A stretch of DNA of 50,604 nt from Deltaproteobacteria bacterium (GTDB lineage: Bacteria > Desulfobacterota > Dissulfuribacteria > Dissulfuribacterales > QOAL01), in the NCBI GenBank assembly GCA_026986785.1, contig JALSNW010000013.1:1-50604 (forward strand). The letters are read 5' to 3'. The translations under genes and the position numbers were made by a program. The notes under the pieces were generated by a model. The model saw only the letters and a list, made by a program, of their open reading frames with translations. It was not told the origin of the DNA and did no database searches. How positions within the stretch are numbered: the stretch's first letter is position 1; the number at the start of each line of letters is the position of its first letter. Below are positions 47,696-50,604 of the stretch, piece after piece.

Positions 47696-48604
47696 TCATC
47701 CCGCTCTTTTCTTCATCTCCCTCTGGGCCACCTGACCTATGATGAGCTCTGCATTGTCTTTGGTAAGTCCAAGTCTCTGTCGATCCTTTTCCAGCTGACC
47801 CATGTCTTCGCTGGAGAGGGTTCCATCATCATGGATCATCTGCTCGACTTCCAGCTCAAATTTCTCCCTCCTGAGACGAAGCTGTTCTGTAAATCCTGAT
47901 GCAATGATACCTGCAGGGAGAGAAACCAAGCCCACCCCAGCAATGGTGATAAAGGTGGCAAATATCTTTCCCTGAACCGTTACTGGGGTAACATCACCAT
48001 ATCCAACAGTTGTTAGAGTCACTATGGCCCACCACATGGCCTTGGGAATGGAGCCAAAAGCCTCGGGCTGCACGTCGTGCTCAAAGATGAAAATACCTAC
48101 CGAGGCGAAGATCAGTATTATGAACATGAGCATTACGGAGACCAGGAGGGAATCTGCTTCATTCCTCAATACGTCGCCAAGAAGATGAAAGGCCATGGAA
48201 TATCTCGTGAGCTTGAGCAGGCGAAGCAGTTGTACAAGCATGAGTTGAGGGGTCTCGATCCAGCCTCCCATGACAAGGAAAAATGGCAGGAATGAAAGGA
48301 GATCGACCATGCCCATGAATGAGACCATATACTTGAGCCTACATTTGAAAGGGTTCTTGTCCTTGGCATCCTGATAGTATGGACAACTCCACAGCCTGAG
48401 CAAGTACTCCAACATGAACACCAAACATGCAAACAGCTCAAACTGCCACAGGTAGACCCCATACTGTTGCTCAAACGATGGCTCTGTTGTAAGAACCAAG
48501 CAGATGGAGCTACTAAATATCAGGGCAATGAGAAACCCAGACACCAGCCTGTGCAGAGGGCCCTGCCATTTTGCCCTGAAATATCCAGCTATTGCCACCT
48601 TCAT
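47696..48604 (-). CDS. Voltage-gated-type potassium channel
   Basis: A 302-residue Kv-like channel subunit with six membrane segments. The selectivity filter is TVGYGD in the pore loop (TLTTVGYGDVTPVT), potassium-type. The S4 segment (QLLRLLKLTRYSMAF) carries only three or four spaced basic residues, fewer than classical voltage sensors. The C-terminal cytoplasmic tail is a charged coiled-coil-like helix. It starts 6 bp after the membrane-protein gene upstream and is convergent with rpoD, ending 38 bp from it. Confidence 0.92.
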   Translation of the reverse strand: MKVAIAGYFRAKWQGPLHRLVSGFLIALIFSSSICLVLTTEPSFEQQYGVYLWQFELFACLVFMLEYLLRLWSCPYYQDAKDKNPFKCRLKYMVSFMGMVDLLSFLPFFLVMGGWIETPQLMLVQLLRLLKLTRYSMAFHLLGDVLRNEADSLLVSVMLMFIILIFASVGIFIFEHDVQPEAFGSIPKAMWWAIVTLTTVGYGDVTPVTVQGKIFATFITIAGVGLVSLPAGIIASGFTEQLRLRREKFELEVEQMIHDDGTLSSEDMGQLEKDRQRLGLTKDNAELIIGQVAQREMKKRAG

Positions 48605-48609
48605 GCCGT

Positions 48610-49254
48610 TCAGGTCTCCTCTGTAAAGACGAGTAGTGCCTTTATATCCTGCTCTTCTTCGAGGTTGCCACCCACTGCCGAAGCCAACACCCCAAAGGTA
48701 GCCATGAGTTTTGAGAAATGAAATGCAGGCAGGCTTTTTCCACCAAGGCCTGCCCAGCCTGCCAATACGCCTTCGGGCAAAAGACCGATTATGATATAGG
48801 ATATTATAAAGAGATTACACCAAAAGGCAGCCATGCCAACCAGCAATGTGCCCAAGAGGACTATCCTGGAGCGAACAGCTTGCTCCATCATCCTGTCACT
48901 GCGCCCAATAACCTGGAGATTCTGGCCGAGATAAAGGGAAATGGCTGCCACTATTATCACACCTGCAAGCAGGAGATCGAGCCAGCCAGAACGCATGGCC
49001 GCCCCCATCTCCCAGGCCTCTGCACTCAGAAACAGGAAGATGATCGAAACCACAGTGGCAGCAGTGAATTTACCCAGGTGCAAAAACATCAGAACCGAAC
49101 GGAAGAACAATATATCCTTTGCAATGGACAGCCCCTCTTGTCTTAGTACCTGGAGATAAAAGCACCATCTGCTCTTTATAGCGGTCTTTTCCTCTATTCT
49201 GGGGTCTGCCACCTTCTCCAGATGGGCACGAATCTCTTTCTTCTCTTCATCACT
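48610..49254 (-). CDS. Four- or five-span membrane protein, probably the second half of a split gene
   Basis: A membrane protein with the best start at GTG 49212 (200 residues). Its frame stays open upstream for 14 more codons (SDEEKKEIRAHLEK), which look like real amphipathic coding sequence, and then meets the TAG that ends the metzincin-like gene. No ATG, GTG or TTG occurs in those 14 codons. The body has about four hydrophobic spans with charged loops. I do not recognise the family. It is followed 6 bp later by the potassium channel gene. Confidence 0.7.
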   Translation of the reverse strand, partial: SDEEKKEIRAHLEKVADPRIEEKTAIKSRWCFYLQVLRQEGLSIAKDILFFRSVLMFLHLGKFTAATVVSIIFLFLSAEAWEMGAAMRSGWLDLLLAGVIIVAAISLYLGQNLQVIGRSDRMMEQAVRSRIVLLGTLLVGMAAFWCNLFIISYIIIGLLPEGVLAGWAGLGGKSLPAFHFSKLMATFGVLASAVGGNLEEEQDIKALLVFTEET

Positions 49255-49767
49255 CTAGTCAGTGGGGGGATGTCCTGTCCAAAATTTCCTTGGCTGCATG
49301 ACGCTATCATCATTGTGGTCCAACCCCCACAGATGCCCCAGTATGTGTCGTACCAGGGACATTAATGCCCTGCGCCTTTTGTCCTGGTCATCGAGTTCCA
49401 GGATCCTGCTCAAGGTTATGGCCCCGGTCTCCAACATATTGGAGGGAACGCCGTTTACCCCTTGGGAAAAGCGTGATTTCATGGGCATGGTTGTCAGGAC
49501 AAGTACATAGTCTAACCCGTATTCGATCTTGATGTCAGAGCCAAATTCAAGGAGACTCAATGGATCCAGGGGGACTTGCCCTGGAAAATCATGTCTTTTG
49601 AGGACGGAAATCTCCCAAGAAAAATCAGGGAAATCCTCACCCATGCATCGTTCAAGCTCATCCTTGAGCCACCTGGCCCAGTTGTCCGTGTCCTGTTCCT
49701 TGGCATATAAAACCAACCCAATGGACACGGCTGGTCTTTGTCTGTTTCTATCAGAAGGGATCGACAT
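49255..49767 (-). CDS. Archaemetzincin-like protein with a degenerate zinc motif
   Basis: A 170-residue protein whose overall pattern (SIGLVLYA at the start, DYVLVLTTMPM, then the metal motif) resembles archaemetzincins. The zinc motif reads HILGHLWGLDH. The three histidines of HExxHxxGxxH are present, but the catalytic Glu is replaced by Ile, so it is probably not an active protease. The C-terminal cysteine cluster usual in archaemetzincins is absent. A TAG at 49255-49257 ends it, and the same frame continues into the membrane protein. The start at ATG 49767 is a reasonable choice. Confidence 0.6.
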   Translation of the reverse strand: MSIPSDRNRQRPAVSIGLVLYAKEQDTDNWARWLKDELERCMGEDFPDFSWEISVLKRHDFPGQVPLDPLSLLEFGSDIKIEYGLDYVLVLTTMPMKSRFSQGVNGVPSNMLETGAITLSRILELDDQDKRRRALMSLVRHILGHLWGLDHNDDSVMQPRKFWTGHPPTD

Positions 49768-49848: not shown

Positions 49849-49869
49849 GCCAGCCCAGTATGGGCCGGC
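49849..49869 (-). terminator. Rho-independent terminator of the pilB/gspE transcript
   Basis: On the minus strand GCCGGCCCA pairs with TGGGCTGGC (one mismatch) around a 3-nt loop, followed by a run of T (plus-strand A run at 49838-49845). It lies downstream of the gspE/pilB stop and before the metzincin-like gene, separating the two transcripts. Confidence 0.8.
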
Positions 49870-50033: not shown

Positions 50034-50604
50034 CTAATATGTGACCCTTACTATCTCCTCCATGGTTGTGATGCCTGAGAGCATCTTCATGCATGCATCG
50101 TATTTGAGGCTCTTCATGCCCTCTTTGACTGCCTGCTGTCTGATATCGTTTTCAGATCTGCCCCTGTGGATCATCTTTTTGATCTCTGGAGAGACAGACA
50201 ATACCTCATAGATACCGATCCTTCCGTAATATCCTGTGTTCCTGCACATGCTACACCCTCTACCTGTCCAGGTATGGGCCTGCTCTGTTTTTATCTTGCA
50301 GCCAAAGGCGGCCAATTCCTGGGCAGAGACAACCTTTTCCTCCTTGCAATTTGGACATATGAGACGAACCAATCGTTGGGCAACAACACCTATGAGGGTC
50401 GAGGAAATCAAATAGGGCTCCAAGCCCAGGTCCATGAGCCGTGTAACCGCACCTGCCGCATCGTTCGTATGTAGGGTGGAAAAAACCAGGTGGCCTGTGA
50501 GGGAGGCCTGTACTGCATATCTCGCAGTTTCTGGGTCACGGATCTCGCCTATCATCACTATATCGGGATCCTGCCTTAATATGTTTCTCAAAATGCTTGA
50601 AAAA
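50034..50604 (-). CDS. Type II secretion/type IV pilus ATPase GspE/PilB, partial
   Basis: The 3' end of a secretion ATPase; the frame runs off the right edge, so at least 190 C-terminal residues are present. It contains [19 protein letters not shown] (Walker B and Asp box), FSTLHTNDA (His box), and a zinc-binding pair CPNC then CSMC before [12 protein letters not shown]. These features mark the PilB/GspE family and distinguish it from PilT, which lacks the tetracysteine site. A terminator follows at 49849-49869. Confidence 0.93.

Follow-up and report, generated by a model that had tools for sequence, protein, structure and literature searches.

An in-frame amber codon in the gene for a metzincin-like membrane protein, next to a Kv-like channel gene, in a deltaproteobacterium

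Inactive metzincins and the interrupted gene

Archaemetzincins (Peptidase M54; NF033823; structure 2x7m) resemble the protein discussed here in the predicted fold of its N-terminal domain, and in the pattern H-x-L-G-H-L-x-G-L-x-H. The protein differs from them because it lacks both the catalytic Glu and the Cys cluster, and is joined to a membrane domain. NF033824 (Myxo_non_zincin), by name also a non-catalytic relative of archaemetzincins, was retrieved as a secondary profile match, but the 174-position model is too short for such a membrane domain, and NF033824 is not among the families obtained for the 11 members at E <=0.1. A metzincin fold devoid of the catalytic Glu and tied to the membrane is found as well in the inactive ADAMs (ADAM22, ADAM11 and ADAM29). 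These, however, are animal, single-pass proteins, and no homology is claimed beyond the fold. ADAM11 is reported to associate with Kv1 channels (PMC11266112). The lesion itself recalls bacterial pseudogenes born from nonsense mutations, in which a single in-frame stop is found in a gene intact in some relatives and lost in others. Nothing distinguishes it from ordinary cases, except that it would be very fresh.

The window, that is, the whole stretch of 50,604 nucleotides analysed, hosts the gene on the minus strand (Table 1). The 385-residue translation starts at the ATG at 49767 and runs down to a terminal TGA (48612-48610), and contains a single internal TAG; past this codon the frame, which is the same as that of the first 170 codons, stays open to the end. 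This minus-strand translation confirms that the metzincin-like and membrane-protein frames are in register and separated by the TAG only, as read in the first-pass annotation. The Shine-Dalgarno sequence of the channel gene falls within the final codons ahead of the terminal TGA. Promoter-like sites numbered 2, versus 2.5 expected by shuffling. The upstream T2SSE gene, encoding a type II/IV secretion ATPase (50034-50604), is truncated by the contig end. Another copy of the interrupted gene was sought in the genome, and none was found.

Table 1. Features of the interrupted gene and its surroundings (positions in the window)
Feature	Position	Strand	Basis
Interrupted gene, N-terminal part, predicted metzincin fold, 170 aa	49258..49767	-	Translation, alignment, predicted structure, Foldseek
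In-frame amber codon TAG, residue 171	49255..49257	-	Homologue alignment: Trp (TGG) in 11/11 close homologues
Remainder of the gene (214 codons and the TGA): linker helix, multi-helix membrane domain at the C-terminus	48610..49254	-	Translation, alignment, hydropathy
GTG, first usual start codon past the amber, closest possible restart	49210..49212	-	Weak Shine-Dalgarno
Kv-like ion channel gene, intact, 302 aa, PF00520, TVGYGD filter	47696..48604	-	Domain match
Terminator-like stem and T run, separating the T2SSE gene from the interrupted gene	49849..49869	-

Homologues of the joined frame and loss of the gene in relatives

The joined protein was searched against 60 genomes, the genome under study included. 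Matches were found in 11, and this genome is the only one carrying a TAG in the gene; the other matches (10/59 genomes) are all encoded by one frame without internal stops. A further scan of contigs returned 10 loci, nine of which were already in the set, and the new one (L021) brought the close homologues to 11. Uninterrupted proteins match the joined frame over its full length, at 57-70% identity and with E values ranging from 1.9e-139 to 3.7e-177. Each of the 11 close homologues is a single protein, which bears out the 385-residue fusion proposed at first and answers the comparison suggested with it; the opposite arrangement, in which two separate proteins would be made and a start would lie near 49212, was looked for, and is found in none of the 11. 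The 14 codons which follow the TAG (SDEEKKEIRAHLEK) had been described as protein-like and devoid of a normal start. They indeed include no ATG, GTG or TTG, the GTG at 49212 coming next, and align to internal protein in all 11 homologues. In the distant full-length relative L093, also encoded by one frame, Phe is found at the amber column and Trp three residues later. Since the automatic alignment is uncertain there, L093 neither adds to nor subtracts from the evidence for a conserved Trp.

The gene is found in 11 of the 46 genomes of the order, again including the interrupted one. Among 395 genomes drawn from the phylum eight gave a match, namely five from the known set, L093, and two stand-alone archaemetzincins carrying HELGH and Cys clusters; a stand-alone membrane domain is not among these eight. 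An open frame, a TAG and another open frame in succession are frequent: the window and a further 400 kb of the genome, 450,604 bases together, contain 169 TAG codons flanked on each side by at least 60 open codons. What is not due to chance is, judging from the alignments, the end-to-end match of the joined frame to uninterrupted proteins, rather than the open-TAG-open pattern. By the same comparisons, the two frames flanking the TAG are taken to be one gene, coding for a fused protein.

The gene is missing in all three genomes of the same genus (completeness 96, 98 and 55%). Traces of its loss have been recognized in a more informative context, as the neighbouring channel gene may persist without it. 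In genome G014 all that remains of the fusion gene in the 392-nt gap preceding an intact channel gene is a 24-residue relic of its 3' end (L077, 1380-1451), interrupted by an internal stop. The relic (E 7e-6 against that gap) is in the right place and on the right strand, and the DNA is alignable up to the channel start. In genome G009 the corresponding gap, 502 nt long, retains no trace of the gene. Both of these fusion-less genomes have, upstream of the channel gene, a conserved ORF about 310 aa long (L077, 176-1108; L080, 69-998). The absence from the genus and the G014 relic are best explained by assuming that the fusion gene is dispensable. In relatives the gene has been lost while the channel stayed, and a nonsense mutation in the present genome would therefore be unremarkable.

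Origin and decoding of the amber codon

The hypothesis of a recent nonsense mutation, already listed in the first-pass annotation, is regarded as the most probable explanation, with moderate confidence: the frame is otherwise intact, and relatives carry a Trp codon at the site. According to this view, a single point mutation changed a conserved TGG into TAG in a dispensable fused gene, made of a metzincin-fold domain without catalytic Glu, a linker helix and a membrane domain. Translation would mostly end after residue 170, and the product would be a soluble metzincin-like fragment without a membrane anchor. Translational coupling to the downstream channel gene, which starts a few bases past the TGA, may be reduced, and the gene would be at the beginning of pseudogene formation.

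Apart from the TAG, the 385 codons carry no lesion. Loss of constraint was looked for in the part of the gene past the stop, and was not seen: none of the 80 positions invariant in the other sequences is changed there, while two of 44 are changed in the N-terminal part. The C-terminal part is 78% identical to that of the nearest relative, a value no lower than the identity of this relative to the others, and its branch length (0.171) compares with 0.202 for the neighbour. The stop must be young, an error, or tolerated; if the gene is a pseudogene, it is a very young one, but the pattern fits an error, readthrough or restart as well. The dN/dS ratio was also compared between the two halves. In the pairs which include the interrupted gene, synonymous sites approach or exceed saturation, so the ratios provide no date for the stop. 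Even the closest homologue, at only about 70% identity, is too distant to measure the age of the stop.

Sequencing, consensus or assembly errors may mimic such a lesion, the gene being intact in the organism. Many bacterial pseudogenes with internal stops are reported to be assembly artefacts (PMC11017572), and a sole stop in a frame free of decay is what an error would leave. Yet the window otherwise contains long intact genes, the assembly (52 contigs) is 99.2% complete, and a real mutation is plausible given that relatives have lost the gene. The amber is known from one assembly of a single genome, where a true mutation would look the same as a consensus error; we consider the mutation probable, and the error unlikely, though to be taken seriously.

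Alternatively, the gene may have been split into two functional proteins, the second being translated from a restart at the GTG at 49212. This codon is located 14 codons past the stop and ahead of the membrane helices, and the C-terminal part shows no decay. However, its Shine-Dalgarno sequence is weak (-2.4 kcal/mol, versus -5.2 for the ATG of the gene and -9.1 for that of the channel gene), none of the 11 close homologues is split, a stand-alone C-terminal domain is not among the eight matches from the 395 genomes of the phylum, and the 14-residue stretch ahead of the GTG is still homologue-like. Restart is thus improbable. The same holds for an unusual start such as ATT, as had been suggested: the ATT at 49233 has a weak Shine-Dalgarno sequence as well (-2.9 kcal/mol), and the region is internal in all close homologues.

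Slightly harder to sustain is the view that the amber is leaky, and that a near-cognate tRNA, with no dedicated system, ensures enough full-length protein. The frame is undecayed after the stop, and in-frame stops under purifying selection have been argued to be widespread in prokaryotes, though mostly short-lived, in a published survey (PMC7918605). The decoding machinery argues against this view. Release factor 1 was found at 564.8 bits, and its loss was accordingly rejected. Transfer RNAs were searched with RF00005, and anticodons were read by ARAGORN at all 44 candidate places. A CTA anticodon is not among the 44, a search in which RF00005 could miss a tRNA-Pyl, and the set is not quite complete, as Ile-GAT and Ala-TGC are absent from it. 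Moreover, when frames of the window with 100 codons or more are retained if they overlap little, 47 result, and 10 of these, the interrupted one included, end in TAG. As an example, the gene for the anaerobic ribonucleotide reductase (707 aa) ends in TAG two residues after the domain match reaches the last position of the profile. TAG is a normal stop in this window.

Dedicated recoding of the amber, either as pyrrolysine, which is reported in some marine Deltaproteobacteria (PMC8318568), or through codon reassignment, may be practically discounted, since the best PylS match in the genome scores 22.2 bits versus a family cut-off of 178.15, the PylC-like N domain (the sole Pyl synthesis gene product sought) was not found, no CTA anticodon occurs among the 44 tRNA candidates, and all 11 close homologues have Trp at this place, not Lys or Pyl. 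Pyrrolysine, and the amber suppressor tRNA put forward with it, are rejected on these grounds, none of the features tested for having been found in the genome. In addition, 450,604 bases of the genome were scanned by coding potential for in-frame stops, and 20 TAG, 10 TAA and 23 TGA codons were flagged. One flagged TAG (L097:7857) corresponds in Pfam to an ordinary CdhD/pterin-binding gene boundary. The other 19 were judged by eye from peptides, a rough control, and a second interrupting TAG was not identified among the 20. The scan did recover a UGA at L097:11293, in a molybdopterin oxidoreductase gene of the formate-dehydrogenase type with the domain split across the codon. A tRNA-Sec (tca) is encoded in the same genome (L065), and motif and tRNA together make selenocysteine probable at this site. 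The scan is thus able to see a recoded stop. The recoding question at this locus is largely closed.

A putative pseudo-metzincin family and its channel gene

In the N-terminal part of the interrupted gene the motif HILGHLWGLDH, of the H-x-x-G-H-x-x-G-x-x-H type, is followed by the VM of a Met-turn-like stretch. Of 13 sequences compared (the interrupted one, L002-L011, L021 and L093), 12 retain the three zinc-binding His. The catalytic Glu is absent from all 13, so that the active metzincin motif HExxHxxGxxH is found in none. As no homologue has Glu at the catalytic position, the N-terminal domain is probably not a protease. The initial label "metzincin-like" holds for the fold, and does not extend to the missing catalytic residue. 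The AF2 model of the N-terminal domain, with block pLDDT mostly between 72 and 93, retrieved in Foldseek metzincins of the PDB, among them the archaemetzincin 2x7m (E 1.6e-05, TM 0.72 by target length), and a metzincin fold is predicted on this basis. Profile-profile comparison of the same domain to the two stand-alone archaemetzincins of the phylum gave an E value of 3.5e-08. Unlike these two proteins (L094 and L095), the N-terminal part of the interrupted gene has no Cys after the third His. The model of the C-terminal domain is poor (pLDDT mostly <60), and hydropathy reveals hydrophobic stretches at about residues 231-257, 263-281 and 297-327. No signal peptide was seen by eye, and hence the metzincin domain is probably cytoplasmic.

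A confident family for the fusion protein was found in none of Pfam, NCBIfam, PHROGs (best E only 0.029) and PADLOC, and defence-system models matched neither the fusion nor the channel protein. NCBIfam/HMM matches to archaemetzincin are weak (best E 2.4e-4), and concern seven of 11 members. Such a bacterial family was not found described in the literature on archaemetzincins, on their pseudoenzymes, or on metzincins together with potassium channels, in sources mostly short of full text. The sequences point to a small family, as yet without annotation, of membrane proteins which resemble archaemetzincins, are catalytically dead, and travel with a Kv-like channel gene.

The channel was found in 12 of the 20 relatives searched. 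Over 21 genomes, the interrupted one included, 11 host both genes, two the channel only, none the fusion only, and eight neither (Fisher p 2.2e-4, a test which assumes independent genomes, although these are related). The channel gene lies directly downstream of the fusion gene in 10 of the 11 genomes with both; in G010 the two are on different contigs. On the strength of this co-occurrence it may be tentatively hypothesized that the intact fusion is an auxiliary subunit of the Kv-like potassium channel, with a pseudo-metzincin domain which would bind metal and act as a cytoplasmic sensor, carried by the membrane domain. Its gene immediately precedes that of the channel, and may be coupled to it in translation. 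The parallel with ADAM11 and Kv1 is one of analogy, not of homology.

The amber by itself is ordinary, and the pseudo-metzincin family matters more, since it makes the role of a pseudo-metzincin as channel partner testable in bacteria. Should the hypothesis of a channel partner be true, the interruption in this genome would disconnect the sensor from both membrane and channel.
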